Notes: generated from the letters alone by a model not told the origin. A stretch of DNA of 21,618 bases from a virus (IMGVR_UViG_3300024346_003984:1-21618), one strand, 5' to 3'; shown: positions 1-20,800, counted from the first letter of the stretch. A program made the numbers and translations.

Positions 1-2
1 TG

Positions 3-266
3 TTGTATACTACATATATGAGATTGAGTATACTACCGCCGTGGATTAAATCTAAAGTTGCTGAAAGATATGCAGAACATATTGCATACCTAAAGCAGTT
101 TGATAATATTGCAGGTGTTATAAACGATTATGAAAGTATTTTAAACTTTATGGAAAAAGACCGCACAGACGAAATAAAAATGTTTAAGTTTAAAACACAA
201 CGTATAGACAATCTAAGACATGAAAACTTATTGGATGTATTTCCAGAACTAGAAGGTATTTGGTAA
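3..266 (+). CDS. C-terminal end of a probable twitch-type radical-SAM protein (5' truncated by the window)
   Basis: Only the last ~87 residues are visible. The frame is open to the left edge, and the apparent first codon (TTG) is unlikely to be the true start. No Cys motif survives here. The tail ends with a basic segment followed by LLDVFPELE. The two related radical-SAM proteins downstream end in the same style (FADIFPLL in 2421-3626, IVEYIPWM in 4587-5924), which suggests this is the end of a protein of the same family. The stop codon overlaps the next start by one base (TAATG), so it is translationally coupled to the B12-type radical-SAM gene. The family call is inference from the C-terminal similarity and context; the catalytic part must be read upstream. 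Confidence 0.6.
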   Translation: MYTTYMRLSILPPWIKSKVAERYAEHIAYLKQFDNIAGVINDYESILNFMEKDRTDEIKMFKFKTQRIDNLRHENLLDVFPELEGIW

Positions 267-2428
267 TGGGTTTTTTTGAACAAAAAGATGGAAACAGAGA
301 AGTGCCTGTAAAGCCAACAGGTACATTAGCTGAAGACAAACACACTGCTACACTTGCTGCTATTGCAAAGTACAGCAAACCTGTACAAAAGGGTTTGGAA
401 AATCTTGAAATAGAATACAAAGTCAATAGACAGACTAGACTGTGTATGTGTTTGCTGCCAGAATGGGATCCTAGTTTTCCACCTTACAATACAGCAAAAC
501 TTGCTAGTGCTGTAAAACGTGCAGGGTATGCCTGTAAAAGTTTTGACATTAATGTAGAAGCATATAGCAGATTTAAAAATGACAAATGGCCTATTGATTT
601 TGATCCTTGGGATCCATTGCGTGATTGGCATTGGTTGCCGGAGCATTATTTTAAGGATATTCATCCACACTTAAAACCTATACTAGATGAAAAGATTGAC
701 GAGATAGTAGAGTTTGCGCCAGATGTAGTTGGCTTTACATTATACTATTGCAATGAAGCACCTACAAAGTACATGGCTGAACAACTAAAGAAACGTTTGC
801 CCGATGTTACTATAATGGTAGGCGGTCCAAGCACTCATGCTAGTTATTACAAAGGTGATGACTTATTTGATTACATTGTAAATGGTGAAGGTGAGCAGCC
901 GTTGTTGCTTGCACTAGCAAGTATAGAAAGCAAGCAAGGTATTCAATATACTGAAAAAGAAAAAAGTATGATTATTAGACAACCTGAAAATCAGCGTTAT
1001 AATCTAAGTACATTGCCACTGCCTGATTACAGCGACTTCGACTTTAGCAAATACAAGTTTCCAAATGGTGCGCTATGTGAAATATCAAGAGGGTGTATTG
1101 CCAAGTGTACATTCTGTGAGGAAACACACTTTTGGAAATACAGACAACGTAATGCTCTAAGCACACTCAATGAGATAGAACACATGTACTACGAACACGG
1201 TACTAATGTGTTTTGGTTTATTGACAGTTTGGTTAATGGTAATCTCAACGAGCTACGTGGTTTTGTAAAAGGCGTTGCAGAAAAAGAACTAGATATACAC
1301 TGGACTGGCTACTGTCGTTGCGATGGTAGAATGGATGCAGAATACTATAAAGATTTAAAAGCTGGCGGTTGTGAAGTGTTAAACTATGGCATTGAAAGCG
1401 GCAGTCAAGTTGTATTAGACGCTATGGATAAAAAAGTTACAGTGCCAGAAATGGAAGCAAACTTCAGAGACGGATATGCAGCAGGCATTGATGCAATGAC
1501 CAACTGGATTGTAGGATATCCTAATGAAGGTCAAAAAGAACTTGAGGATACTCTTACTTTTATGTACAGAGTACGCAACCAAGGACTTATTGCTATCAGT
1601 CAAGGCACAGGATTTAGTGTTGGTGTAGATACTATTGTAGGACAAAACTTTGACAAGTTTAACCTAAGTCCATTTTATTATTATGATCATTGGATTACAA
1701 AAGATTATAAAATGAGTATTGTACACAAACTAATACGTATGAAGTCCTTTAGTATTTTTACAGATTTGCTGAATACAGAAAAGACTTGTAGTAAGCCAAC
1801 TAGACCAAACTTGGCAAAGTTTCATTATAATATCAAGTTTGATAATCCTGACAACGAGTTTGATATTGAATACGACTATGATGACTTTGATTACAATATT
1901 ATTAAACCTAACATTAGTAACTTTGCTGATAGTTTGGTAAATGAGATTTGGCCATTTTTAAGAATAGTATGGCGTACAAAAGGCGCATACAGACTGCATT
2001 TAAAGTTCCGCAAGGATTGGGAATATGAAGAATGGGGAGAGCGTAATGCTGCTCCGTTGGATGCCGATTATATATTTAAAATCGACGATGATGGCAAATG
2101 GACTGCTAAGTTTAACTGGGATTATCAACAGGATGAATACACTGATTGGGAAGACAAGTATTGGATTGAAAATGGTGCAATGGTAATGAGTCCAGATCCT
2201 TCAAGCCCTATTTGGAGTATTATGGATTTTACAAGAGATAATAGTAATGCAGTTATTAGAGCACGTAAACTTGCATGGAAAGGCGACCCAGATAAAAAAT
2301 CTAAAGATCCGTATAATGCTTACGACTTTGAAAGGTTTAAACAAGACGAAAAAGACTTTATAAGTGTACGTAATATAGATTTTAGTTTTAAATATGAATG
2401 GCAGGGCGAAGGAGACTGGAGTGAGTGA
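266..2428 (+). CDS. B12-binding-type radical-SAM protein with long C-terminal extension
   Basis: 720 aa. Residues ~55-205 resemble a cobalamin-binding Rossmann domain: LLPEWDPSFPPYNTAKLA at its start, then an APDVVGFT strand, IMVGGPSTHA, and a VNGEGEQPLL segment. The radical-SAM core begins near residue 270 with the canonical CxxxCxxC at C277/C281/C284, which should hold a [4Fe-4S] cluster and SAM. Enzymes of this architecture (class B) often methylate unactivated carbons or rearrange sugars and cofactors; the substrate here is unknown. Residues ~480-720 are rich in Asp, Tyr and Trp and match no domain I recognise. ATG 266 is chosen over an upstream in-frame TTG at 260 because AGAAGG lies at 251-256 and the TAATG overlap is typical of this operon. 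The B12-axial DxHxxG motif is not evident, so cobalamin binding is inferred from the fold only. Confidence 0.85.
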   Translation: MGFFEQKDGNREVPVKPTGTLAEDKHTATLAAIAKYSKPVQKGLENLEIEYKVNRQTRLCMCLLPEWDPSFPPYNTAKLASAVKRAGYACKSFDINVEAYSRFKNDKWPIDFDPWDPLRDWHWLPEHYFKDIHPHLKPILDEKIDEIVEFAPDVVGFTLYYCNEAPTKYMAEQLKKRLPDVTIMVGGPSTHASYYKGDDLFDYIVNGEGEQPLLLALASIESKQGIQYTEKEKSMIIRQPENQRYNLSTLPLPDYSDFDFSKYKFPNGALCEISRGCIAKCTFCEETHFWKYRQRNALSTLNEIEHMYYEHGTNVFWFIDSLVNGNLNELRGFVKGVAEKELDIHWTGYCRCDGRMDAEYYKDLKAGGCEVLNYGIESGSQVVLDAMDKKVTVPEMEANFRDGYAAGIDAMTNWIVGYPNEGQKELEDTLTFMYRVRNQGLIAISQGTGFSVGVDTIVGQNFDKFNLSPFYYYDHWITKDYKMSIVHKLIRMKSFSIFTDLLNTEKTCSKPTRPNLAKFHYNIKFDNPDNEFDIEYDYDDFDYNIIKPNISNFADSLVNEIWPFLRIVWRTKGAYRLHLKFRKDWEYEEWGERNAAPLDADYIFKIDDDGKWTAKFNWDYQQDEYTDWEDKYWIENGAMVMSPDPSSPIWSIMDFTRDNSNAVIRARKLAWKGDPDKKSKDPYNAYDFERFKQDEKDFISVRNIDFSFKYEWQGEGDWSE

Positions 2429-3626
2429 TACTTTTTGTATATACCCGTTTATAAATGTACACACCAACACAGACGGCAGGTGCAAACTATGTTGTCATGT
2501 ATACAGTGAAGACTACATTCAAGTGGATGGCGAAGATGCAGTACTTGGTAAAACTGATTGGTGGAACATTTGGAACAGCAAGTACATGTTGGATGTACGT
2601 GCCAATATGTATGCTGGCAAACCTGTTAAGGAATGTAATCGTTGTTATGAACACGAAGCTAAAGGATTGCAAAGCAGTAGACAATGGGCCAACGAAAACT
2701 ATAGTATGCCCAACCACGGCAATCCTACACACTTGGAGTTACGACTGGGCAATCATTGCAACTTAAAGTGCAATAGTTGCTGGAGCGTTAGTAGTAATCA
2801 GATTTACAAAGAACGTAAAAAAATACTTGCAAACGAATCTGTACCCAAGTGGTTAGACGATCAATGGCAGCATGAAATAAAAAGTGTAGAAGAACATGAT
2901 TGGGAGTGGTACGAAACACAGGAGTTCCGTGACTTTGTAGACAGTGTAGCACCTACACTAGAACGCCTTTACTTAACAGGAGGCGAGCCTACACTAATAC
3001 AAGCCAATCAATACGTGTTAGACAAGCTCGTTGAGGCTGGTAACAGCAAGTGTCACGTAGCTTGGACAACTAATATGACTACATGGCCCGAAGGCTTTTA
3101 TGACAAGTTAGAGTTCTTTGACAGCAGCGAAGTACAGATGAGCATAGACGGTTATGGTGATCATAACATGTACATACGTTATCCTACAGACTGGAACAAG
3201 GTAGAAGAGAACTTTGACAAAGCAATGAAGTTGCCTGAAAAAGTACAACTAAAGATTTACTTTGTGTATCAAGCATGGAATGTGTTTGATGTTGATAAAC
3301 TAATACGTTGGCTAGAACAAAAACAAACAAGACGTGTAGACTTTGTTCCTATATTTTTAGAACACCCTGATCAACTGCATAGTTGTGTTTGGCCTAGAGA
3401 ACTACAGCATAATATTATTGGAAAACTAATGATGCTGGATACAAAGCTACACCAAGATGCTGTTCAAAGAATCATTAACTACACACAGAATACTAATAAA
3501 TATTCGGTAGAGAACCTCAAGAGAATGAAACAGTTTATCAGTATTAATGATAGATATCGCAAGTACAAGTTTGCTGATATATTTCCGTTACTAAATGACA
3601 TATTGGAAACAGAATGCAAGAAATAA
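2421..3626 (+). CDS. Radical-SAM protein with N-terminal cysteine (twitch-like) segment
   Basis: 401 aa. The radical-SAM motif CxxxCxxC is at C113/C117/C120 (HCNLKCNSC), followed by a GGEP motif (LYLTGGEPT) that contacts SAM and by MSIDGYGDHN. An N-terminal module has cysteines at 6, 21, 24, 25, 72 and 75 (FCIYPFINVH, KLCCHV, ECNRC), the pattern of phage and bacterial twitch/SPASM-related radical-SAM proteins that may bind an auxiliary Fe-S cluster. The start is GTG 2421: AAGGAG (2409-2414) lies 6 nt upstream, and the start lies inside the end of the previous gene (8-nt overlap). The C-terminus FADIFPLL resembles the tail of the first gene and of the 4587 gene. Substrate unknown. Members of this group modify peptides, sugars or cofactors, but nothing here selects among them. 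Confidence 0.85.
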   Translation: MSDTFCIYPFINVHTNTDGRCKLCCHVYSEDYIQVDGEDAVLGKTDWWNIWNSKYMLDVRANMYAGKPVKECNRCYEHEAKGLQSSRQWANENYSMPNHGNPTHLELRLGNHCNLKCNSCWSVSSNQIYKERKKILANESVPKWLDDQWQHEIKSVEEHDWEWYETQEFRDFVDSVAPTLERLYLTGGEPTLIQANQYVLDKLVEAGNSKCHVAWTTNMTTWPEGFYDKLEFFDSSEVQMSIDGYGDHNMYIRYPTDWNKVEENFDKAMKLPEKVQLKIYFVYQAWNVFDVDKLIRWLEQKQTRRVDFVPIFLEHPDQLHSCVWPRELQHNIIGKLMMLDTKLHQDAVQRIINYTQNTNKYSVENLKRMKQFISINDRYRKYKFADIFPLLNDILETECKK

Positions 3627-4606
3627 AAGCTATTTTACCAGCTAAAGATAAATGGGTAAGTTTGGTGTGGCAAGTCAACGATTGGTGCAACTTTCGTTGT
3701 ACCTATTGCAGTGAATGGAACTGGGCTGGCCGAAATAAAAATGACACAGACATTCCATTGATTGTAGATACACTTGAGCGTATTATGTTACACTACAAAG
3801 CCAAGGGATACAAATATTTTAAACTGTATCTAAGTGGCGGTGAGCCTACATTTTGGAAAGCGTTGATTCCTGTTGTAGAAAAGTTTAGAGAACATGCAGA
3901 ATGGCCTGGTAGTTGTGTAGGTATCAACACCAACTTTTCAAAGCCGCTAAGTTGGTGGGAAGATCATCATCACTTGTTTGAAGATGTTGTTGCTAGTTAT
4001 CATGCCGAGTGGAGCAAAGATGACAAGTACATGGATGTTTACAAGTTTTTACAAGATAAGAAAAACTATCTATGCAGCCGGATTATGATGCATCACGATC
4101 ATTTTCAACAGTGTATTGATTTTGGTGACAGAATAAAAAATGAGTGTGACAACTACATGATTGAGTATGCACCAGTCTATGACGAGCTACGTCCTAGCAC
4201 AGATCCGTATCATTACAACGAACCGTGGCAGATGGAGTTTTTTCAAACTAATAGTACAGTACAACAGCAGAGCATTCCTATAAAAAAAGATCCTAGTTAT
4301 GCTTGGGCAAAAGTACAATACGAAGATGATACTATAGAACCTATTGATACAAATGGTATCATTACAAATGGTAAAAACTTTTTTGAAGGTTGGTTGTGCA
4401 ATATACACGAAAGTTTACACATTCATCCTAACGGTAAAATACAACAAGCAAGTTGTGGAGTAGGACCAGTTGTTGGAAATATTGTACAAGGCGAGTTTAA
4501 TACTACAATGAGTGAAGGAGTGTGGTGTCCTAAATCGCATTGTCATTGTGCAGCAGATTTTAACATTAGTAAAGCAAGGCCTGAATATGCAAAACAAATT
4601 AGATAA
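3614..4606 (+). CDS. Radical-SAM protein with C-terminal SPASM/twitch-like cysteines
   Basis: 330 aa. CxxxCxxC sits close to the N-terminus (C25/C29/C32, WCNFRCTYC), with GGEP at LYLSGGEPT. Unlike its neighbours it carries the accessory cysteines at the C-terminus: C262, C281, C305, C310 and C312 (GWLCNIHE, ASCGVG, VWCPKSHCHC). This arrangement is typical of SPASM or twitch auxiliary-cluster domains. The start ATG overlaps the previous gene by 13 nt. The paired cysteine layouts (N-terminal in 2421 and 4587, C-terminal here) show these are not simple tandem duplicates. Radical-SAM identity is secure; reaction and substrate are unknown. Confidence 0.85.
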   Translation: MQEIKAILPAKDKWVSLVWQVNDWCNFRCTYCSEWNWAGRNKNDTDIPLIVDTLERIMLHYKAKGYKYFKLYLSGGEPTFWKALIPVVEKFREHAEWPGSCVGINTNFSKPLSWWEDHHHLFEDVVASYHAEWSKDDKYMDVYKFLQDKKNYLCSRIMMHHDHFQQCIDFGDRIKNECDNYMIEYAPVYDELRPSTDPYHYNEPWQMEFFQTNSTVQQQSIPIKKDPSYAWAKVQYEDDTIEPIDTNGIITNGKNFFEGWLCNIHESLHIHPNGKIQQASCGVGPVVGNIVQGEFNTTMSEGVWCPKSHCHCAADFNISKARPEYAKQIR

Positions 4607-5924
4607 ACTACCAAAAAACTTTTGTTACTTTAGTATGCAAGGATACAGTACACACTCGCATGGACGCACTAGGCCGTGTTGTTTTAGTCGAGTAGAAACC
4701 AATGCGTACATGCCAGGTGTTGATGTCGATTCGGTTCCTTATTGGAAAGAACATCATAACTGGAATAGTCCTGATCTTGAAGACTTTATCAACGATCCAA
4801 AGGCCAAGGAAATACGTAAACAACTATTAAACGACGAAGTTCCGGAAGGATGTCGTAGTTGTTTTGAACTTGAGGATCAAGGCATACGTAGTTTTAGACA
4901 AACATGGAATGAAATATACGAAGATCAAATAGACACTAGTTTAAAACATGTCGACGAAGAAGGTCATTTAGATGCGCAAGCCGTTACATATTTAGATATT
5001 AGTTTAGGAAACATTTGTAACCTAAAATGCAGAAGTTGCAATCCGTGGGCAAGCCATAGATGGATAGAAGAAGGTCCTACAGTACCACACACTGATTGGG
5101 ATGACACAGCATATATGATTGCTAAAATGAGCAGCGACAAGCCTTGGTTTATTAAAGCATTTGCTGAAGGATTTTTTGATGAAGTACTGCCTAATGTCAA
5201 AGTTATTAACTTTATAGGTGGCGAGCCATTGGTAGTTGAAGAACACTATGCTTGGTTAGAACACATAGTCGATCAAGGATGGAGTAAAGATATCGAACTT
5301 CATTACAATACCAACGGTACAACTATACCTGATAGGCTGTTGGCTATTTGGGACAAGTTTAAGGGTGTTATACTAAGCCTAAGTATAGATGCTATAGGCG
5401 ATTTAGCATACTATGTTAGACATCCGACTAAATGGAAAATAATAGAAAAGAATACAAAAAAACTAGCTGAGTTTAGCCGTACACGCAAAGGTGTGCTAGT
5501 ACATACACATGTTACACTTAGTTTGCTAAACTTGCATGACTTGCCTAACTTACTTGATTGGTGTAAACAGCAATACGATACATGGCACTACGAATGGGAT
5601 TGGGGCAACTACGGATACCAAAACTGTCTGCCACACTTTAACATTGTAGATTTTCCTCGTCATTTGAATATACGCAACTTACCTGAAGATCGCAAAGTGT
5701 TGATGAACAAGATGCTGGAAGAGCAACATCAAAAGTTTAAAAATGCCAAACTACCAGACTGGGAGCAATGGGCTGTTGATAATATTATCAACTTGAAAAA
5801 TATTTTAAATCAGCCGCAAGACGAGACAGATTGGAAACACTTTATTGATAATACCAATGCCAGTGACAAGTTTAGAAAACTTAACATTGTTGAGTATATT
5901 CCGTGGATGGAGAAATATTTTTGA
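4587..5924 (+). CDS. Radical-SAM protein with N-terminal cysteine (twitch-like) segment
   Basis: 445 aa. CxxxCxxC at C144/C148/C151 (ICNLKCRSC), GGEP in INFIGGEPL, and an N-terminal cysteine module at C13, C31, C32, C89 and C92 (RPCCFS, GCRSC). The order of elements matches the 2421-3626 protein, so the two are paralogues from an old duplication. ATG 4587 is preferred to an upstream in-frame TTG (4512) because AAGG (4576-4579) lies 7 nt upstream and the cysteine module follows directly. It overlaps the previous gene by 20 nt. The C-terminus (IVEYIPWMEKYF) has the family-like ending. It probably acts in the cytoplasm of the infected cell on an unknown substrate. Confidence 0.85.
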   Translation: MQNKLDKLPKNFCYFSMQGYSTHSHGRTRPCCFSRVETNAYMPGVDVDSVPYWKEHHNWNSPDLEDFINDPKAKEIRKQLLNDEVPEGCRSCFELEDQGIRSFRQTWNEIYEDQIDTSLKHVDEEGHLDAQAVTYLDISLGNICNLKCRSCNPWASHRWIEEGPTVPHTDWDDTAYMIAKMSSDKPWFIKAFAEGFFDEVLPNVKVINFIGGEPLVVEEHYAWLEHIVDQGWSKDIELHYNTNGTTIPDRLLAIWDKFKGVILSLSIDAIGDLAYYVRHPTKWKIIEKNTKKLAEFSRTRKGVLVHTHVTLSLLNLHDLPNLLDWCKQQYDTWHYEWDWGNYGYQNCLPHFNIVDFPRHLNIRNLPEDRKVLMNKMLEEQHQKFKNAKLPDWEQWAVDNIINLKNILNQPQDETDWKHFIDNTNASDKFRKLNIVEYIPWMEKYF

Positions 5925-6511
5925 AACTAGTAAGTTTTGGTGACGAACTAACCATAACCAAAAATAACCATGTTGACTTATTAGCAAAGCAACTAGGCAT
6001 GTCTGTAGTGAACAACGGACTAGAAGATACAAGCAACCAAAGAATATTCAGTGATGTTGTAAAGTTCATATGTGAAAATAATACAAGCGAATATTTTTTC
6101 TTAGTTGGATGGACATCGCAACAAAGACAAGACATATTTTGGAAGGATGAGTACTTTACATATCGTCCTGACAAGCGTGTATACAATGACAATAGTATTA
6201 ATGGTATGCACAGAGGTGATGAAGTGTTGTTTAATCCTATACTAACTTCAGGCCAATGGGCAACTATGGCACTGTCTCTACAAGAAACATTTGAGTTTCA
6301 TGATTGTAAATATTTCATGTACAACACACAAGATTGTATTCATATTAGTGATTACAATGAAAAAAATATTAAAAGTTTAAAAACAACAAACTATCATAAT
6401 CCGTTGAATAAAAGCAGTAGTATGAAATACTATTTAGAACAACAAAGTTTACAATCGCACACTTGGGCAGATTTTCTTTATCGTAAAATAAATGCAGGAG
6501 GTGTACTTTGA
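5921..6511 (+). CDS. SGNH/GDSL-like protein that has lost the nucleophile serine
   Basis: 196 aa. It aligns with the next protein across its length: MKLVSFGDE against MKYLVAFGCSH, TSNQRIF against GSNQHIF, GWTSQQRQD against NWTGANRIE, and a C-terminal SHTWADFL against HQVWADRL. This is the block layout of SGNH/GDSL hydrolases. At block I, where GDS or GCS would place the catalytic Ser, this copy reads FGDEL, so Glu replaces Ser and hydrolase activity is doubtful. Start: TTG 5921 forms a TTGA stop/start overlap with the upstream gene, with GGAG at 5909-5912, 8 nt upstream; a GTG at 5903 is the alternative. It may be a regulatory or binding paralogue of the neighbouring SGNH proteins. The fold is inferred from motifs only. 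Confidence 0.6.
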   Translation: MKLVSFGDELTITKNNHVDLLAKQLGMSVVNNGLEDTSNQRIFSDVVKFICENNTSEYFFLVGWTSQQRQDIFWKDEYFTYRPDKRVYNDNSINGMHRGDEVLFNPILTSGQWATMALSLQETFEFHDCKYFMYNTQDCIHISDYNEKNIKSLKTTNYHNPLNKSSSMKYYLEQQSLQSHTWADFLYRKINAGGVL

Positions 6512-7239
6512 AATATCTAGTTGCATTTGGATGTAGTCATACCAATGGCAGTATGTTAGACGGAAAAAATAGTGCTAGTGAATACAATGTGCGCAACGGG
6601 TTTCCGGGTATGCTTGCAAAGCGTCATGGATATGAGCTGATTAATATAAGCAAACCCGGCGGTAGCAATCAACACATATTTCGTACAGTATTAGACTTTG
6701 TAAATAATCACATGGATAACCAAAACGAATATTTGTTTCTAATAAACTGGACAGGTGCTAATAGAATTGAACTACGCTATCCTGAAAAAAATGATCTGCA
6801 CAACTATGTACATTACGGAGATCATCTTGACTTTAAAAGTGTTCCATTTACTGTAGGTATTAAGCCAAGTATCTATACATATAAACCTATTGTGCATTTA
6901 ATCAAATACATTCCTTATTTGTTTAATGACGATATGATGTTTGATAAATGGGCAACCTATGCTTACAGTTTGCAGTGTATTCTAAAGAAAAATAATATAC
7001 GCTATCTAATGAGCAACACTTGTGAAGGTCTTAGTGTAACAGAATACAATACTAATATTATCAACAAGTTAGATACATTGCACTATCCGCATATCACTAG
7101 TGACAAAGATTCAATGGTTGTATGGTTATTAGACCAAGGAATCAAAAAAACACCTTGCTGGCATTTTAGAGAATATGGCCATCAGGTATGGGCTGACAGA
7201 TTAGAAACATATCTCAAGGAGTTGGGATATGTTGAATAG
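6508..7239 (+). CDS. SGNH/GDSL hydrolase-like protein
   Basis: 243 aa. Block I is FGCSHTNG with the candidate nucleophile S10, followed by GGSNQHIF (block II/III-like) and a C-terminal YGHQVWAD (H225) that could supply the catalytic His. Known SGNH enzymes remove or transfer acyl groups on lipids, polysaccharides and peptidoglycan. The start is TTG 6508: a full AGGAGG (6496-6501) lies 6 nt upstream and the codon overlaps the previous stop as TTGA, so a TTG start is well supported. It is tightly coupled to the genes on both sides. The substrate is unknown; an O-acyl group on a surface or virion glycan is only one possibility. No signal peptide is visible, so it should act in the cytoplasm. Confidence 0.7.
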   Translation: MKYLVAFGCSHTNGSMLDGKNSASEYNVRNGFPGMLAKRHGYELINISKPGGSNQHIFRTVLDFVNNHMDNQNEYLFLINWTGANRIELRYPEKNDLHNYVHYGDHLDFKSVPFTVGIKPSIYTYKPIVHLIKYIPYLFNDDMMFDKWATYAYSLQCILKKNNIRYLMSNTCEGLSVTEYNTNIINKLDTLHYPHITSDKDSMVVWLLDQGIKKTPCWHFREYGHQVWADRLETYLKELGYVE

Positions 7240-8215
7240 AAATATAGTAAGCAAGAACTTTAGATATCGTAGTAATGAGTTTAACTTTCGGTTAGGATTT
7301 CCAGAAGAAAAAACTGTAAAAATAGGAGCATTGTACACTCGTATTGATTATTGGAAAAATGTTTACTTCAATCTCTTAAAACTCAATCCATTTGATAATA
7401 TAATGTTCTATATGAATCAAAGTGGATTTGATACATTTGCAATGATATTGGCTGCTACTGAACTTGATTTAAACATTGTTGCATCAAATCCTGATTTATT
7501 AATACACACACTTCCAGATTCAATACTAGATACCAAAAGATTTACTAAACATCGAAACTATAGTTATCATGATTTGTCAGATCATAAGTTTGACAGTGTT
7601 GTAGAATATACACAAACAGGAACTTCAACGATAATAGGTAAAACAAAAATACCAACAATAACTATACACGGAAATGTTCTGCACACAAAATATAATATTC
7701 AACCTGAGCTGATTGTAGACTTTATGCTGCCGGCATTGATGAATGATGCTGTTGAAACACACACCTGCTTGGGATTTAATGATGTTGTCGAAGGTATGCA
7801 TCGGATATTAAAAGTTGTGCAAATGCAAGGAATCAACTGTGTTCTTGTGCCATCTATTGAAACTTGCTATAGTTTTGTTGAAGTAGCATTGCTAAAAAGT
7901 ATTAGTATTAATAACTTGCGCATCAACTGTTGGGACAATGGTCTTATAACACCTGTTGTTAATCCTGAAACTATCAACTACAACGATCTCAATGACTTGC
8001 CTAGTAAATATCGCATCAAAGGAAAAATATTAATAGATGTCACAGAAGATAAAATATATTTTCAGTTTGTAAAGCCTGTTGATAAAAGTATAGCCAAAAT
8101 AAAAGTTTCTGCTATGAATGCCGAAGTCGAACGTAGAACAGGAAAAAAAATAAGCAAGTGGGCATATGCACAAGGACCTGACGACGAAACATTAATTTTG
8201 TTTAGGAATCTATAA
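7229..8215 (+). CDS. Unknown protein, possibly a short degenerate ANL-type adenylating enzyme
   Basis: 328 aa; not confidently recognised. The stretch around residues 45-85 (LLKLNPFDNIMFYMNQ, then FAMILAATELDLNIVAS) resembles the start of acyl/aryl-CoA synthetase and adenylation (ANL) domains. YTQTGTSTIIGKTK followed by HGNVLHT (127-153) sits where the ATP loop YTSGTTGxPK and its SHxN extension would be, but the loop is altered. RRTGKKISKW near the C-terminus is vaguely like the ANL lysine motif. At 328 aa it is well short of the usual ~500 or more, and the GxTE and YxTGD motifs are not seen. ATG 7229 has AAGGAG 7 nt upstream and overlaps the previous gene by 11 nt. If the fold is right, it could activate or merely bind an acyl group handled by the flanking SGNH proteins. 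Confidence 0.4.
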   Translation: MLNRNIVSKNFRYRSNEFNFRLGFPEEKTVKIGALYTRIDYWKNVYFNLLKLNPFDNIMFYMNQSGFDTFAMILAATELDLNIVASNPDLLIHTLPDSILDTKRFTKHRNYSYHDLSDHKFDSVVEYTQTGTSTIIGKTKIPTITIHGNVLHTKYNIQPELIVDFMLPALMNDAVETHTCLGFNDVVEGMHRILKVVQMQGINCVLVPSIETCYSFVEVALLKSISINNLRINCWDNGLITPVVNPETINYNDLNDLPSKYRIKGKILIDVTEDKIYFQFVKPVDKSIAKIKVSAMNAEVERRTGKKISKWAYAQGPDDETLILFRNL

Positions 8216-9012
8216 TGATTAAAATAATCTACAATGACGGATGTAGCTTAGGTGCAGGCGCAGAACACAACAGTTGGGAAATGTTGCCTGATGGTATTGA
8301 AAACTGTGATAGTACCTGGACTGACATTATTAAAAACAAATATTATCCAAATGCTAAAAAAATGACTAGAGCAACAACAGGCACTAGCAACAGAGGTATT
8401 CGCAGAAGAACAATACACAATATACTAGAACTACTAGAAACATATAAAAGTGATAATATATTGGTTTTTATTATGTGGACTAGTTTTTACAGACGAGAGT
8501 TTTTATTATCTAATCCTAAACTTGACAGAGGCGACAACTATTTTACACTACTACCTAGTGATACTACTAGAGGATTAAAATCTCCTACAGGAAAACTAGC
8601 AAACAGTGACGAACGTAGAACCATATTAAAAGACAATCATTTGGATACGATTGCAGATGAAATATACACACATCATAATGAGCCTATAAATCATTTGTAT
8701 GAGTCGTTGGCAGACATTGAAGCAACTAATATGTTTTTAAGAATACATTGTATAAAAAGTGTACAATGTTTTGGGTTTGGATCTGACATCAATCCTAATC
8801 TAATCTTAGGAGATGTGTACACAGACGCTATAATCAATCGTGTATTAAAATATAATATATACTATATTCCTACTGCACCTACACAAGGATTTTATGAGTA
8901 CTCTGTTGGACAACAGTTTGAACTTGGTCCTGGACTGCATCCTTTAGAACATGCACATAGGGCTTGGGCTAACATCATTCCGAGGCATTTTAGGTTGACA
9001 CCCGAAAGGTAA
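8215..9012 (+). CDS. SGNH/GDSL-like protein, third copy in the operon
   Basis: 265 aa. The N-terminus has block I-like DGCSLGAG (candidate Ser S11), then GTSNRGIRRR and VFIMWTSFYRRE, matching the SNxxI and WTxxxR signatures of the SGNH-like proteins at 5921 and 6508. A C-terminal GLHPLEHAHRAWAN gives His candidates H242, H246 and H248 at the usual block V position. The start is an ATG in a TAATG overlap with the preceding gene, with AGGA at 8204-8207. It is the last gene of the left operon, and the -35 element of the next promoter lies inside its final codons. It is probably a carbohydrate- or lipid-acyl hydrolase or transferase; substrate unknown. Confidence 0.65.
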   Translation: MIKIIYNDGCSLGAGAEHNSWEMLPDGIENCDSTWTDIIKNKYYPNAKKMTRATTGTSNRGIRRRTIHNILELLETYKSDNILVFIMWTSFYRREFLLSNPKLDRGDNYFTLLPSDTTRGLKSPTGKLANSDERRTILKDNHLDTIADEIYTHHNEPINHLYESLADIEATNMFLRIHCIKSVQCFGFGSDINPNLILGDVYTDAIINRVLKYNIYYIPTAPTQGFYEYSVGQQFELGPGLHPLEHAHRAWANIIPRHFRLTPER

Positions 9013-13528: not shown

Positions 13529-13981
13529 ATGGCTTACTATTCAACTAAAACATACGGACACCATATTGGCTTGAGCGCAGTGTTCCGTCAACCACATGCA
13601 GATCATTCACATTGCAAGTTCTTGCACGGTTACAGTTTAGGATTCAAATTTACATTCGGTTGTGACGAACTAGACAACAAGAACTGGGCTGTAGACTTTG
13701 GAGGACTTAAACCTTTGAAGGCATGGCTAGAAGATACATTTGATCATAAGACAGTTATCGACAGAGAAGATCCTTTCATGTACAAGTTTGCAGAACTAGA
13801 AAACATGGGACTGTGTGAGATTACAGTACTGGATGGTGTTGGTGCAGAGAAGTTTGCATATCACGCTTGGAAGTTTGCAGACAACTTAGTACGTGAACTG
13901 TCAGATGGACGTTGTTGGTGTGTAAGTGTAGAATGTATGGAGCATGGAGCAAACAGTGCAATCTACAAAGCAATGGACTGA
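13529..13981 (+). CDS. queD: 6-carboxytetrahydropterin synthase / PTPS-like enzyme (QueD-like)
   Basis: 150 aa. The QueD/PTPS layout is present: H23 and the HC(x3)HG block (C29 catalytic, H33 metal), VDFGGLK, FDH (H73) and EHGANSAIY with E138. The usual HGH zinc motif reads HGY here, which I believe is normal for a subfamily with FRQP and FLHGY motifs. QueD makes 6-carboxytetrahydropterin from dihydroneopterin triphosphate on the way to preQ0/queuosine; related PTPS enzymes make tetrahydropterin. In phages this pathway can feed 7-deazaguanine DNA modification, but no queC, queE or folE gene is in this window. AAGGAG (13514-13519) lies 9 nt before the ATG. Both an early and a late promoter precede it. 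Confidence 0.85.
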   Translation: MAYYSTKTYGHHIGLSAVFRQPHADHSHCKFLHGYSLGFKFTFGCDELDNKNWAVDFGGLKPLKAWLEDTFDHKTVIDREDPFMYKFAELENMGLCEITVLDGVGAEKFAYHAWKFADNLVRELSDGRCWCVSVECMEHGANSAIYKAMD

Positions 13982-14783
13982 AACCAAACAAGTGCGCAAA
14001 GCAAGGAAGGCTCGTGAAAAAGCCTTAACTGAACTAGCGCAACTAGACCAAGAAATGGGGTTGCTAGATGTAGCCCCATTATCTTCTAAGAACTATGTAG
14101 CATGTTTAAAATGGGGCACCAAGTACAATGCTGAATATGTAAACAAACTATACCGCATGGTAGATAGAAATATTACTATACCATATGAGTTTGTATGCTT
14201 TACAGAAAATACAACAGGATTAGATAAAAATATTAAAACTTATTCATTGCCTAAACTAAGAGCAGATGGCTGGTGGTATAAACCTATGTTTGTTGGTGCT
14301 GATTTGCCATTAAAAGGAACACTACTATTTTTAGATTTAGATGTTATTGTTTTTAAAAACATAGATAAGTTATTTAGATATCAGCCTAATAGATTTAATA
14401 TTTGTAGAGATTTTAATAGAAGCCAACGTAAAGATTGGAACCGTATGAATAGCAGTGTGTTTAGAGTTAACATAGGACAATATGATAACTTATGGCAGCA
14501 GTTTAAACTAAATCCGCAAGCACACATGCAACGACTACGTGGTGATCAGGATTGGATGTTCAAACATATTACTGATCACCAATTCTGGCCTGACGAATGG
14601 GTAATGAGTTACAAATGGGAAATGAGGGACAGAAGAGATCTTAAACTTGATCCTGTAAGAAAACGTAACTTTGTAATAGATGCACCACCTAAAATACATC
14701 CAGATACATGCATTGCAGTGTTTCACGGCGAACCAAATCCTGCAGATGCAAATGACAGTTGGGTAAAGGAGAACTGGCGATGA
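13944..14783 (+). CDS. Glycosyltransferase-like protein (GT-A, DxD)
   Basis: 279 aa. After a charged, Lys/Arg-rich ~45-residue N-terminus, YVACLKWGTKYNAEYVNKL begins a GT-A nucleotide-sugar fold. FLDLDVIVF carries the metal-binding DxD at D131/D133, MNSSVFRVN and RGDQDWMF resemble the acceptor and second metal regions, and AVFHGEPNP supplies a C-terminal His. It probably transfers a sugar from a nucleotide-sugar donor to an unknown acceptor (DNA base, virion protein or host glycan). ATG 13944 overlaps the queD-like gene by 38 nt and has only a badly spaced GGAG, so the true start may be a little downstream (e.g. GTG 13992). Confidence 0.7.
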   Translation: MEQTVQSTKQWTETKQVRKARKAREKALTELAQLDQEMGLLDVAPLSSKNYVACLKWGTKYNAEYVNKLYRMVDRNITIPYEFVCFTENTTGLDKNIKTYSLPKLRADGWWYKPMFVGADLPLKGTLLFLDLDVIVFKNIDKLFRYQPNRFNICRDFNRSQRKDWNRMNSSVFRVNIGQYDNLWQQFKLNPQAHMQRLRGDQDWMFKHITDHQFWPDEWVMSYKWEMRDRRDLKLDPVRKRNFVIDAPPKIHPDTCIAVFHGEPNPADANDSWVKENWR

Positions 14784-15043: not shown

Positions 15044-16165
15044 ATGATTAAACGTATTGGCTTTGCATGTAAATATATGCACGAAGATCAAACACAGAAG
15101 AAAAAAATACTAGAAGAAATTCAGCGACCGCTTACTGAAAAATGTACAACAGTACAGTGGCTAAATAGACAAAGCAAGGATGTTGCAGAAGAGCGGCTTT
15201 GGGACATCATGACGCATAATGCAGCCGCAGCTAAAAGGTTGGTAGAGTATGTGGGAAGCCTTCCATCAGAGCTTAGGATGGTACGACTTGGCAGCAATCA
15301 GCTTCCTTGTTATACCCAGCGTGACTGGAGTTATTATTGGCAGCGTCCTGACGTTATTGCGTTCTGTGAAAGAGAATATGCAAAAGTCGGTGAAGCGGCA
15401 AGAGCCCTTGATGTGCGACTATCGATGCATCCAGGTCAGTTCACAGTACTCGCCAGTGATAACCCAGAAATAGTAGAACGGAGCATAGAAGAATTTGAAT
15501 ATCATGTCAACTTATTACGGTGGATGGGCTACGGTCAGAACTGGCAAGACTTCAAGTGTAACGTCCACATCTCCGGTAGACAAGGTCCAGCCGGTATCAA
15601 AGCAGTCCTTCCAAGACTCTCTCCAGAAGCAAGAAACACTATTACTATTGAAAACGACGAAAACAAATGGGGTCTCGAAGCAAGCCTAGAACTTGCAGAC
15701 GATGTTGCACTTGTTCTCGATATACACCACCATTGGTGTAACACAAGAGGAGAATATATTGAACCCAATGATGATAGAATCAAACGTATTATTGATAGCT
15801 GGCGTGGTGTGCGTCCTGCTATGCATTATAGTGTTAGTAGAGAAGATCTTCTTTCCGGTCACTCAACAACACAAAGACCAGACTTTGCGGCGCTTGAAGA
15901 ACAAGGCTTCAAAAAAGCAAAACTAAGAGCACACAGTGATTACTTGTGGAATGATGCAGTCAACGATTGGGCCTTATCACATTGGGAATGGGCCGACATC
16001 ATGGTAGAAGCAAAGTGCAAGAACTTGGCTAGTAGTCAGTTGTTGCAAAGACATTTTATAAACAAGGATCTGTTTGCCGGTAAATACAGCATGGAGGATA
16101 AAAATGAGCAACTTTATACACGCAATGTATGCACGGACGCAAGCACAAGTCCAATCGCCGCTTAA
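15044..16165 (+). CDS. uvsE: UV damage endonuclease (UvdE/UvsE)
   Basis: 373 aa. A TIM-barrel UV endonuclease: RIGFACKYM at the start, RLGSNQLP, SMHPGQF (H129), KCNVHISG, TIENDE (E203), DIHHHW (228-230) and PAMHYS (H261) give the metal-binding His/Glu/Asp set of the family. The enzyme nicks DNA 5' of cyclobutane dimers and 6-4 photoproducts, starting light-independent repair, which suits a virus of sunlit surface water. The family is usually ~300-330 aa, so the C-terminal ~70 residues are an extra tail. ATG 15044 has only a weak AGG upstream but lies directly after promoter P3. The 3' end overlaps the next gene by 62 nt. Confidence 0.92.
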   Translation: MIKRIGFACKYMHEDQTQKKKILEEIQRPLTEKCTTVQWLNRQSKDVAEERLWDIMTHNAAAAKRLVEYVGSLPSELRMVRLGSNQLPCYTQRDWSYYWQRPDVIAFCEREYAKVGEAARALDVRLSMHPGQFTVLASDNPEIVERSIEEFEYHVNLLRWMGYGQNWQDFKCNVHISGRQGPAGIKAVLPRLSPEARNTITIENDENKWGLEASLELADDVALVLDIHHHWCNTRGEYIEPNDDRIKRIIDSWRGVRPAMHYSVSREDLLSGHSTTQRPDFAALEEQGFKKAKLRAHSDYLWNDAVNDWALSHWEWADIMVEAKCKNLASSQLLQRHFINKDLFAGKYSMEDKNEQLYTRNVCTDASTSPIAA

Positions 16166-16397: not shown

Positions 16398-16512
16398 CGG
16401 AGTATTAATGGTAGCAGCAGGTGCAGCTATTATTATCTTTTCGCCATTAACAAAACTTATTGCTTATGGTGCTATTGCATACGGAGCATGGACTATTTGG
16501 CGCAAAGGTTAA
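16348..16512 (+). CDS. Small membrane protein (54 aa)
   Basis: ATG 16348 has AGGAG at 16335-16339, 8 nt upstream, inside the end of the coiled-coil gene (50-nt overlap). The product starts MIKNWIETRLRERSTVDGV and continues as an amphipathic-to-hydrophobic stretch (VLMVAAGAAIIIF, then LIAYGAIAYGAWTIW) ending in a basic RKG: one or two membrane passes. The Shine-Dalgarno and overlap chain support expression. Function unknown. Confidence 0.65.
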   Translation: MIKNWIETRLRERSTVDGVLMVAAGAAIIIFSPLTKLIAYGAIAYGAWTIWRKG

Positions 16513-17192
16513 AACTTGCAGCTATCGGATGTAGTTTTACTAATTACATCTGGCCTACATATGCAGATATACTTCAAGCAGATAAGTTTGGAATAGCTGG
16601 TATTGGCAACGAGCGTATCTTTTACATACTACTTCATTTGTATAAAACACAACAGTTACATTGTTATGATGAAATCATTATTCAGTGGACAGGTCCTTTT
16701 AGATTTGACTACTTAAAAAAAGATGGTTGGACTCACAATGATGGCAGCATTGCTCATAGTGATGAAAACAAGTATATTTGGAGAAAAATTAAAGACTGGT
16801 ACAACGAAGATTTTGAAACTGAAAAAAGTGAAAATTATATTTTAGCAACAAAAGCAATATGTGATAAAATAGGAATAAAGCAATATCACATGTCCATGAC
16901 TGATTTTGTAGACCATGTAGATCTACCTGAACTAAGCAATAACTTCAAAGGAAGGTATCGAATACAAAGTGCTAAATGGTCAAAAAAACCATTCGAAGAT
17001 GGGCATCCTGATATCGTTTCTCATATCTCAATAGCAGAAAAAGCTGCTGAATATTTAGGAACTAGCATCCATCCTGCTATGATACAAAACTGTAATAAGT
17101 TTCATAGACTAATTTTAAAAGGAATGGTATTTGAAGATATAGAAAAGTATTATAACCTATATTTTCCCAATAGGCATATTACTGCTTGCTGA
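16488..17192 (+). CDS. SGNH/GDSL-like protein, fourth copy, separate from the cluster
   Basis: 234 aa from ATG 16488. Block I AAIGCSFTNY (S16), GIGNERIF, IIQWTGPFRFD and a late DGHPDIVSH (H173) repeat the signatures of the three SGNH-like proteins at 5921-9012 and identify it as a paralogue ~8 kb away. The start is uncertain: GGAG (16483-16486) is only 1 nt from ATG 16488, while TTG 16497 has the same GGAG at 10 nt and would fit the TTG habit of this family. It overlaps the small membrane-protein gene by 25 nt and, at its 3' end, the minus-strand gene by 36 nt. Predicted acyl hydrolase or transferase of unknown substrate. Confidence 0.65.
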   Translation: MDYLAQRLKLAAIGCSFTNYIWPTYADILQADKFGIAGIGNERIFYILLHLYKTQQLHCYDEIIIQWTGPFRFDYLKKDGWTHNDGSIAHSDENKYIWRKIKDWYNEDFETEKSENYILATKAICDKIGIKQYHMSMTDFVDHVDLPELSNNFKGRYRIQSAKWSKKPFEDGHPDIVSHISIAEKAAEYLGTSIHPAMIQNCNKFHRLILKGMVFEDIEKYYNLYFPNRHITAC

Positions 17193-17511: not shown

Positions 17512-17877
17512 ATGATGAGCATACTAACTTTAACCTCAGCAGCAGAGAAACAAATCGATCTTCTAAGTGAAGAAAACAACTGCTATGGCATTACACTAAA
17601 CATCAAGGGTGGTGGATGTGCTGGTTTTGAATATGAATGGGGTACAGTAGCTACTCCAGCAGACTTAGCAGCAGACGATGAAGTTGTCAAAACAGCTAAC
17701 GGGTGTGCGTTTGTTGTTGGAGCTCACAGTTTAATGTTTCTAATAGGAACAGAAGTGGATTATGTAAGAAGTTTAGTTGGTGCTAACTTTGAAATAAACA
17801 ATCCAAATGCACAGAGTTCATGCGGATGTGGCGTAAGCGTCAACTTCGATATGGATAATTTAGTACCACAGTTTTAA
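17512..17877 (+). CDS. A-type Fe-S cluster carrier (HesB/IscA-like)
   Basis: 121 aa. The family motifs are intact: GGGCAGFEYEW with C36, and SSCGCG with C104 and C106, the three cysteines that hold a [2Fe-2S] or [4Fe-4S] cluster for delivery to apo-enzymes. The length is normal for IscA/HesB. HesB-like genes occur in marine T4-like phages. In this window it could supply the [4Fe-4S] clusters of the radical-SAM proteins 12 kb to the left (inference). AAAGGA lies just before ATG 17512 (or ATG 17515, which gives better spacing). It is followed 11 nt later by the large virion gene, an odd partner. Confidence 0.9.
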   Translation: MMSILTLTSAAEKQIDLLSEENNCYGITLNIKGGGCAGFEYEWGTVATPADLAADDEVVKTANGCAFVVGAHSLMFLIGTEVDYVRSLVGANFEINNPNAQSSCGCGVSVNFDMDNLVPQF

Positions 17878-17888
17878 AGGATAAAGAA

Positions 17889-20800
17889 ATGGCAAGACAA
17901 GAAGTTGATATTGGTATCGAGGGTAATGACGGCACAGGCGATAGCATCCGTGAAAGTTTCAAAAAAGTAAATACAAACTTTACTGAACTATATGCTGTAT
18001 TTGGGCTTGGCGGTGCAATATCATTTAAAAATATCGACGATGTTCCTGATTCGTATTTAGGAAATACTACTGCAATAACAGCAGTTAACAGTACAGAAAC
18101 AGGTTTAAACTTTTATAAGTTTGTTAGTGATACTGGCAACAATGGTTCGGCAAAAGCAGTTAATACAATCAATAACAGTGTTGTTGTTGAGTTTGATGAT
18201 GTTGATCCTGCTACACCTAATCAAAGTGGTACAGTTAAGATTATTATAAATGATCCACATATTGAACGTGATCCAGATCCAGTATTAAACGCTCCTTTAA
18301 ATGCTCAAGCAGTAACAGCATATAGTAATGCTATTAATACAACACTAAGAAATACCGGTGCAGGCGATGATATCAATACACTTGTTACCAACTGGGCAAC
18401 TACACATCCTGGATCGGCAGCTATTTCTACTGATAATGTTATTATCAGTAAAGGGTATGCAGATGATAACTATGTAAATGTAGCAGGCGATACTATGACT
18501 GGTGCGTTGAATGTTCCAGCAAGTGCCACAGGCACACAGGTTCCGCAAACACAAGAAGTAATTACACGAGCAGGTAGTGAAACTAATAGACGTATGTTAG
18601 ATACACTGTACCTATCAGATCACCCAAATCCTCTCGAAGGCTTCGGCGCTCCAAATGGTAAAGATGATTTACAAGCTGTTACAAAACTTTATGTTGATAC
18701 ACAGGGCTATGCTAGTGCAACAAACATTTATGTTTCAACAGCTGGTGATGATTCACAAAAAGCAGCTCCATCTGGCCAAGAAGGTAGATCGCCACAGTAT
18801 GCTTACAAATCTGTTAATGCTGCTATGATTAAAGCAGAATCGATTATTGAAGCTACTCCATACGAACCTGGTCCTTATGTACAGCAAGTAACATACGACG
18901 GTGGCGCTGTTAATAGTATTATTGATAGTATTACAGGATATACCAGTCCAGCAACCGCAGTAGCAGCTAGTAACTTAGCTGTGTCTAATACAAACTCTAT
19001 ACAAGAGTTTGTACAAGATTACATTAAAGTCAACTTTGCAGACTTAACATACGATATACAACTTTGTAAACGTGATGTACAACTAATGATTGATTCTGTA
19101 AGACTTGATGTTAATGCAGGATTAACAGTAAACTATCTATCACGTTGGGCAGGCCTAAGATATAATGCAAACCCAAGTGCAATTAAAGCACAAGTAGATC
19201 AAGGAGCAGCTACACGAGCATCGATTGCTGTGGTTAGAGCACAGTTGGTTAGTGCATTTAATGACGCTAATACAGCAGCACCAGGCACAATCGCAGCAAA
19301 TGTTATTACAGCCTATACTGATCGCTTTAATGAAATCATTGACATTTTATCAGGAACTGATGTTCCACTTGCAGCCACAGGCGCAGGATATACATTTGCA
19401 TTTACTAATGGTACAAATCCAGCAGTTGACCAAGGTGGTGAAGGCAATCCTGATCTTATTGAAGGTAAGATCATTGTAGGAAAGCTATCGGGTGCAAAAG
19501 GTATTATTACTGATTACACTCGTAGCGCAAGTGTTACTACTGATAGCGTAGTAGTTGACCTAGTTGAACCTATTGAGTTTATTGCAGGTGAAGAACTAGA
19601 ATTTGGTAATATTACTAGAAACAACCAAATCACAGTAAGAATTGAATCTGGCATTTATTACGAACATCTTCCTATTAAGTTACCTGAAAACGTAAGTATC
19701 AAAGGTGACGAGTTTAGACGAGTTGTGCTACGTCCAAAGCCTGGTGTATCACAGAGTAAATGGAATCATACATATTTCTATAGAGATATCATAACTGATA
19801 GTCTTATATCAGCATATTCACCGGCTGCAACACTAACAAATGTGTCTGCTGCTGATCCGGCACGTACACTAGGAACATATCAGATAGGAGTAGATGATTG
19901 GGGATCTAATGGTTCTGGTGTAAAAGCTACATTCCAAGTTATTGTTTTATCAGGCGGTGCCTGTACTGTAACTATTACAAGCGGCGGCGATGGATTTATT
20001 GTTGGTGAAACAATAACTATTAATGACAGTAAGATTGGTGCCGGTGGCGCAGCAGATTTAACAGTCGACATTGCAACCACAGGTGGCGGATATCACTTTA
20101 CACACCCAGTTAGTGGAAAGCAAGGAAAATATGGATATCATTATGTATCAGATCCTAGTAAACTAGCAGACGTAGGAACTGATGCTACAGCTAATCCTGG
20201 AAACTTTAAAGACGCTGCAAGACTAATCGAACTCAACAAAGCCTATTTAGTAGAAGAAACTATTGAATACGTTGATGCAACATATCCTAGTTTAGTATAC
20301 AACGAAACTAAGTGTCGTCGAGACACTGGATTGATTGTTGACGGCATTGTAAAAGATTTGCGTGTAGGCGGAAGAGAAAACACTCTTACAAACCAAGGCG
20401 CATATTATACAGGCGCAGTTGCAGGACAAGAAACTGAAACTGCCGCAGCAATAACAAATCTAAAAGCTATTATAACAAATATTTTAGCTAACGATTCGGG
20501 CAATGGATATTCAGGAACAGGCAGTGTTACTCAAATATTTGATGAAGATTATGCAGCAGAAACTGAATCAAACACACAAGCTAATGCATTAGTCGATTGT
20601 GTTGCATATTTTAATAATGTAAACTACAACCCTCCATTAAACAACAGTGAAATGGATGTGCTACTGTGTAATGATGGTACTATTGTAAGAAACATTACTG
20701 TACAAAGACAAGGTGGATTTATGATGGTACTTGACCCAGAAGGTCAAATACTAACACGTTCTCCTTATTGCCAAACAGGTTCGAGTTTTGCACAGTCTAA

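Follow-up and report, generated by a model that had tools for sequence, protein, structure and literature searches.

Here, we describe an ordered gene cassette of a marine T4-like phage, carried on a 21,618-base IMG/VR fragment (the window, meaning the whole stretch of DNA analysed), whose core combines a glycosyltransferase (GT)-like gene, four twitch radical-SAM genes and one radical-SAM gene of the type called g4 below, usually together with a B12-binding-domain radical-SAM gene (B12-rSAM). That T4-like marine phages hold many radical-SAM genes was known before; the literature searched yielded no account of the ordered array and its partners. The core is also seen in many further aquatic phages. 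We read the operon, tentatively and as a leading possibility short of a probable one, as a multi-step cytoplasmic pathway that would build or decorate a surface glycan, either of the host LPS or of the virion.

The original prediction placed nine consecutive plus-strand genes at 1-9012, overlapping by 1-20 nt, and the open reading frame (ORF) listing bears out this run (Table 1). Starts were chosen by inspecting start codons and upstream purine tracts, which set g3 at GTG 2421, with AAGGAG 12 nt upstream, and g5 at ATG 4587. With starts backed in this way the overlaps come to 1-22 nt, nearly the predicted range: g1/g2 by 7 nt (TTG 260) or 1 nt (ATG 266), g2/g3 by 8 nt (35 nt if ATG 2394 is used), g3/g4 by 13 nt, g4/g5 by 20 nt, g5/g6 by 22 nt, g6/g7 by 4 nt, g7/g8 by 11 nt and g8/g9 by 1 nt. 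Several genes have a ribosome-site-like tract inside the gene before, the pattern expected of coupled translation. As for internal promoters, of which the original prediction saw none, a consensus scan, an uninformative method here, counted 49 promoter-like sites against 40 (sd 4.9) in shuffles, with an 11/12 promoter-consensus match within g2 (976-1003), and found no excess of terminator-like sites. Hydropathy revealed no transmembrane (TM) or signal segments in the cassette proteins, and all the products look cytoplasmic. Among relatives, dN/dS across the cassette genes is 0.009-0.30, mostly below 0.15, and every gene is under purifying selection.

Table 1. Genes of the operon (g1-g9, with cassette slots c2-c10) and two further genes of the window
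Feature	Coordinates	Strand	Basis
g1 (c2), twitch radical-SAM, C-terminal end	1..266	+	NF033640, 45.6 bits, profile positions 314-397
g2 (c3), B12-binding-domain radical-SAM, 722 aa	260..2428	+	PF04055, 49.5 bits; PF02310, 37.9 bits
g3 (c4), twitch radical-SAM	2421..3626	+	NF033640, 301 bits; probable start GTG 2421
g4 (c5), radical-SAM with Cys-rich (twitch/SPASM-like) C-terminus, 330 aa	3614..4606	+	PF04055, 31.1 bits
g5 (c6), twitch radical-SAM	4587..5924	+	NF033640, 325 bits; probable start ATG 4587
g6 (c7), degenerate SGNH-family protein	5903..6511	+	Alignments, iterative search
g7 (c8), SGNH/GDSL-fold protein (DUF6071), start TTG 6508	6508..7239	+	PF19547, 41.4 bits (cut-off 27); AF2 model
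g8 (c9), miniature ANL-fold protein, 328 aa	7229..8215	+	AF2 model and PDB matches
g9 (c10), SGNH-family protein	8215..9012	+	PF19547, 25.1 bits (just below cut-off 27); iterative search
g21, SGNH-family gene outside the operon	16488..17192	+	Iterative search; G-C-S-F and DGHP motifs
A-type Fe-S carrier (IscA/ErpA-like)	17512..17877	+	PF01521, 49.9 bits

All nine genes are present, but the set is truncated, as related contigs show the operon to start upstream (5') of the window. Close relatives of the operon, on eight viral contigs, carry a GT-like gene (396 aa) and a 403-aa twitch enzyme ahead of the gene that completes g1, which the contig end cuts in the window; the complete gene in one relative (L008:1821-3029) encodes 402 aa, and g1 is 95% identical to its end. 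The full order is thus GT-like, twitch, twitch (g1), B12-rSAM (g2) and twitch (g3) in c0-c4, followed by g4, twitch (g5), SGNH-like (g6), SGNH (g7), mini-ANL (g8) and SGNH (g9) in c5-c10, with c0 and c1 overlapping by 4 nt in L008. The c0 protein is GT-like by motif alone, its family having no Pfam match and nothing useful in a PDB sequence search. In another close relative, minus-strand genes upstream of the cassette (L014 5141-7629) resemble, by their motifs, a PLP aminotransferase, a 2OG-Fe(II) oxygenase and an amidinotransferase.

The radical-SAM assignments stood. Each of g2-g5 exceeds the PF04055 gathering cut-off, and g3 and g5 lie far above the curated cut-off (170 bits) of NF033640 (N_Twi_rSAM), whose C-terminal end is matched by the last 87 residues that make up g1. 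The CxxxCxxC motif is kept in all complete radical-SAM genes, and an N-terminal auxiliary C..CC..C..C pattern in all four twitch paralogues (c1, c2, c4 and c6). The NF033640 model name gives no reaction; here, by comparison, four orthologous members occupy fixed slots alongside two other radical-SAM types. In g2, the B12-binding domain (PF02310, residues 143-215) is N-terminal to the radical-SAM core (PF04055, 274-434; CxxxCxxC at 279-286). Its nearest NCBIfam models are ApyD, rSAM_ocin_1 and BchE, every score being far under the cut-off, and it fails those of the B12-dependent RiPP maturases (99.6 against 750 bits for ApyD, 94 against 282 bits for rSAM_ocin_1). With RiPP radical-SAM maturases the cassette shares twitch/SPASM-type auxiliary cysteines and a B12-rSAM resembling class B methyltransferases, but the twitch region is N-terminal here, and no PqqD/RRE domain was found in 30 array-bearing phage records and no precursor peptide in the operon. 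Among INPHARED phages, g3 has no match at 1e-5 and g2 matches just a 22% stretch in Streptomyces phage SF3. The dN/dS of g5 among relatives is 0.009-0.023.

A scan with the four twitch paralogues returned more than 560 viral stretches. Among the best-scoring of these, about a dozen have c0-c6 arranged alike, most of the genes being 52-99% identical. What follows c6 differs from contig to contig: L131-133 continue with c7-c10 at 41-52% identity, L130 with c7, c8 and a short c9, L142 with c8 and a short c9, L134 and L140 with c7 and c8, L136 and L137 with c8 alone, L135 with c7 and a fusion of c8 with the C-terminal portion of c9, and L138 and L141 with nothing. Within the core, the g2 slot (c3) is without a B12-rSAM in L034 and L035, L034 having an SGNH-like gene there instead (GDS motif, by eye), and L038 has a class I methyltransferase-like gene between c4 and c5. 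The cassette ends (c0 and c7-c10) change faster than the radical-SAM middle.

Querying with g4 only gave 80 loci, or 33 at 90% identity, with relatives 39-99% identical. Every one of the 33 non-redundant phage loci falls within an array of two or more twitch genes, and 32 within arrays of three or more; within the fetched stretch, 22 have an SGNH gene, 19 a GT10-like gene, 15 a B12-rSAM and 4 a g8 relative. Moreover, a tree of 152 twitch proteins grouped them by slot and not by phage, with support of 1.0 for c1, 0.996 for c2 and 1.0 for c4. The c6 set also came together, with support of 0.23 at its deepest node and 0.999 for most of the set (seven loci). In the mainstream arrays, support was 0.97-0.998 for the first, second, third and last slots, values that describe the tree and are not a blind test, since these slot sets were picked by reading it. 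Recent tandem duplication of the core was considered and rejected, because it would group copies by phage, contrary to the slot clades seen.

The tight coupling had originally been taken to argue for one pathway, an idea that would suffer if the genes occurred independently of each other. For the radical-SAM and GT-like core the idea gains: in many phages its genes are coupled and in order, each slot with its own orthologues, and its radical-SAM genes were not found apart. The idea fits the SGNH and ANL genes less well, as they do occur apart, and a fully conserved nine-gene unit was rejected: L025/L141 and L037/L138 have the core without SGNH genes, L007 and L008 are without g9, and g8 is restricted to four of the 33 g4 loci, all close relatives. 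We also consider it quite unlikely that the cassette is a loose collection, in which a fast-duplicating radical-SAM family occupies a cargo region and its members share no pathway. Copy number does range from 3 to 8 per locus, cargo genes are exchanged and an SGNH gene has taken the B12-rSAM slot of L034, but fixed order and slot orthology across divergent phages, together with the strict co-occurrence of the g4 type with twitch enzymes, already make this idea hard to hold for the core.

At the 3' end, the SGNH-like calls were upheld, for g7 by its predicted structure and for g6 and g9 by membership of the same family; the SGNH fold is real in the g7 model, and the proteins did not turn out to have an unrelated one. 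The AF2 model of g7 has a pLDDT of 90.5 (42-sequence alignment), and Foldseek matched it to thioesterase I (TesA), the top match, CE2 esterases and PatB. The catalytic Ser10 is kept in 40 and the block-V His219 in 41 of the 42 aligned members, g7 and g9 among them; by fold and Ser/His, g7 is a putative hydrolase or acyltransferase. Iterative search joined g6, g7, g9 and g21 in one family of about 230 members, in which g7 exceeds the PF19547 cut-off, g9 falls slightly below it and g6 well below. Compared with known SGNH/GDSL hydrolases (TesA, CE2 esterases, PatB), g7 shares the fold and the catalytic Ser and His, but has W-T-x-x-x-R at the block-III region instead of GxND, and no signal peptide. 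Alignments show g6, by contrast, to be without the catalytic residues, FGDE replacing GxS and block V, with its His, being deleted. Despite these losses its dN/dS is 0.055-0.139, suggesting a maintained, probably non-catalytic member; that of g9 is 0.116-0.298. In 23 large array-bearing records, SGNH genes occur near the main array (within 3 kb) at 29 of 98 places against 8.5 expected, a 3.4-fold excess whose Poisson p of 3e-8 overstates the evidence, since array neighbours supplied most of the profile and the records, being related, are not independent. The association of SGNH genes with arrays is real but not exclusive, most SGNH copies lying elsewhere in these phages.

The ANL-like call for g8 is borne out as to fold, while an active adenylating enzyme is not supported. 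The AF2 model (pLDDT 79.9, eight sequences) has 458 PDB matches at E<=0.001, the best 50 of the 458 being all ANL proteins, with partial matches at TM 0.38-0.49 on query length; in a viral structure library, the named proteins among the best four are AMP-binding or acyl-CoA synthetase proteins. Pfam and NCBIfam profiles gave g8 no sequence family, a PDB sequence search gave nothing useful, INPHARED phages held no match, and the g8 profile matched ANL proteins weakly and over the N-terminal residues 14-92 only; the ANL call therefore rests on structure. None of the P-loop TSGTTGxPK, TGD and catalytic Lys motifs is among the invariant columns of the g8 alignment, and the P-loop-like stretch varies between homologues, which, with the size of 328 aa, leaves adenylating activity unsupported. 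While sharing the predicted fold of the ANL superfamily (acyl-CoA synthetases, adenylation domains), the g8 family differs in length (about 330 aa compared with some 500 or more) and in having no conserved adenylation motifs. Some g8 relatives consist of the N-terminal part only, and one C-terminal part is fused to an SGNH domain (L135 2310-3368, minus strand), which suggests from gene structure that g7 and g8 may work together. Separately, a twitch radical-SAM array in L067 has beside it a gene (2660-3751) for a compact phage ANL protein of 363 aa, whose P-loop, TGD and C-terminal Lys motifs are all intact.

Such folds could also be explained if the enzymes acted on a small molecule bound to an acyl carrier, with g8 as activator and the SGNH proteins as thioesterases. 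The thioesterase I match of g7, the ANL fold of g8 and the motif-intact ANL gene near the L067 array agree with this, as do single twitch radical-SAM genes of Paenibacillus (L146) and Poseidonocella (L155) that adjoin carrier-protein-like and polyketide/fatty-acid-type genes. However, no PP-binding (ACP) domain was found in 30 array-bearing phage records, many of them fragmentary, and g8, present in few arrays, has no recognisable adenylation motifs; we regard a carrier-bound substrate as improbable. Many of the bacterial carriers of twitch radical-SAM pairs or arrays (L144-L220) are Bdellovibrionota genomes; several apparent carriers (L145, L156 and L166) resemble phage contigs placed in bacterial bins, and the bacterial context is used with caution for this reason.

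The genomic company of the arrays favours a surface glycan. Sister arrays at 63 other viral loci have 3-8 twitch genes flanked by GT8-like and GT10-like genes, with a carbamoyltransferase near 44 of the 63, an SGNH gene near 40 and an amidinotransferase near 11, and often tail genes upstream (the amidinotransferase, GT10-like and tail labels are motifs read by eye). Large array-bearing phage records have 5 to 19 twitch-type matches each. Of the isolates in the phage collection, only Vibrio phages K566 and K567 were picked up by a canonical twitch query, the K566 array adjoining two GT8 genes, one GT4-like gene and genes for PagP and LpxC. A conserved protein of about 363 aa with no Pfam match, encoded in 46 viral loci, lies between twitch array and SGNH genes (component 3, e.g. 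L088 10217-11308); it was not seen in cassettes of the window type.

SPASM/twitch domains are typical of peptide maturases, and the twitch and B12 enzymes might accordingly modify side chains of a virion protein (e.g. the tail fibre) or a host protein, much as RiPP maturases do, with the GT-like protein glycosylating it. To this hallmark can be added that the best curated models of the B12-rSAM include ApyD and rSAM_ocin_1, that tail genes immediately precede many sister arrays, and that the products look cytoplasmic, as virion modification requires. The 30 array-bearing phage records, many fragmentary, hold no PqqD-type recognition domain, however, the operon offers no short precursor ORF that has a ribosome site (incomplete contigs limit the scope of this search), and the carbamoyltransferase, amidinotransferase, LpxC and PagP neighbours point to glycans, which leaves a peptide or protein substrate unlikely.

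Downstream of the operon, the window carries a QueD/PTPS-family gene (PF01242, 13529-13981) and a GT8-like gene (13944-14783), a pair kept downstream of the cassette in most relatives, as well as a UvdE-type UV endonuclease gene (15044-16165) that is 75-88% identical in relatives and keeps its place beside g21. Sugar and radical chemistry is used in known cases of phage DNA hypermodification, and these genes, in the same contig, could hint that phage DNA, host tRNA or a cofactor is what the enzymes hypermodify. Being separate from the operon, and with no nucleotide-modification family among the recurrent array neighbours examined, they leave this explanation highly improbable. The A-type carrier could plausibly provide the radical-SAM enzymes with clusters. 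Beyond it, a large open ORF (17889-21617; full length 2363 aa in G005/L015) has a weakly T4 gp9/10-like N-terminus and is likely a tail or baseplate-associated structural protein. The DNA polymerase of the related contig G005 (L017 5746-8427) is nearest to those of two jumbo phages, Sinorhizobium phage Phosso (49%) and Agrobacterium phage Atu_ph07 (46%), a hint of an alphaproteobacterial host.

Returning to the surface-glycan pathway, the GT-like protein and six different radical-SAM enzymes of the core would act on a sugar precursor or growing glycan, each radical-SAM enzyme doing its own step, such as epimerisation, dehydrogenation or deoxygenation, with C-methylation by the B12 enzyme. The SGNH proteins of the 3' end may add or remove acyl groups, whereas the degenerate g6 and the mini-ANL g8 could bind the substrate or act as partner subunits, varying with the host glycan. 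Through its product, the pathway might then alter the host LPS or O-chain, blocking rival phages, or coat the virion.

We infer the substrate, the reactions and their purpose from observed gene content, folds and neighbours. Counted in favour are the core order, the 33 of 33 g4 loci, the slot clades, the GT, carbamoyltransferase and amidinotransferase neighbours, the K566 locus, the SGNH enrichment, the missing TM and signal segments, the dN/dS values and a parallel in the host-recognition regions of pelagimyophages. Counted against are that the window's own operon holds no proven sugar enzyme and no sugar-nucleotide synthesis genes, that the B12-rSAM scores best against RiPP enzymes (far under cut-offs) and twitch/SPASM enzymes often act on peptides, and that the SGNH profile came largely from array neighbours in non-independent records. 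A virion glycan would be suggested by cytoplasmic location and tail-gene neighbours, LPS by LpxC and PagP, and both are kept within the one reading. The product may be an unusual modification of the virion, host surface or a small molecule, as originally proposed, with the neighbours favouring a surface glycan.

Two published accounts come closest. Radical-SAM-rich viral genomes with an A-type Fe-S carrier, TARA_ERS488813_N000010 for one, are described in PMC5332604, which notes 12 radical-SAM genes in one T4-like marine case; like the phage of the window these are T4-like and marine, with a gene for the A-type carrier (ATC) and many radical-SAM genes, and the carrier of the window agrees with the pairing described there. 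In its accessible portion, that account counts genes and discusses Fe-S metabolism, with no ordered cassette, SGNH/ANL partners, slot orthology or glycan context. The hypervariable host-recognition regions of pelagimyophages hold GT8 glycosyltransferases, which the authors interpret as modifying the O-chain, together with radical-SAM cassettes (PMC7029224); in the portion available, the radical-SAM genes figure as added cassettes only, and their chemistry or composition is not treated.

More broadly, aquatic T4-like and jumbo phages possibly, though this is rather doubtful, share an old multi-step pathway in which four to eight consecutive radical-SAM enzymes, none replaceable by another, make a chemically unusual, undescribed glycan or virion modification, with swappable SGNH and inactive ANL/SGNH-like proteins as specificity parts. 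Radical-SAM enzymes are oxygen-sensitive and costly, and the conservation of their slots across deep divergence suggests a product whose importance justifies maintaining so long a pathway. An experimental handle exists in the isolate Vibrio phage K566, whose array is next to lipid A and glycosyltransferase genes. If the product is a surface glycan, the cassette would bring chemistry new to phage-host recognition and superinfection exclusion, along with a large unexplored supply of radical enzymes.
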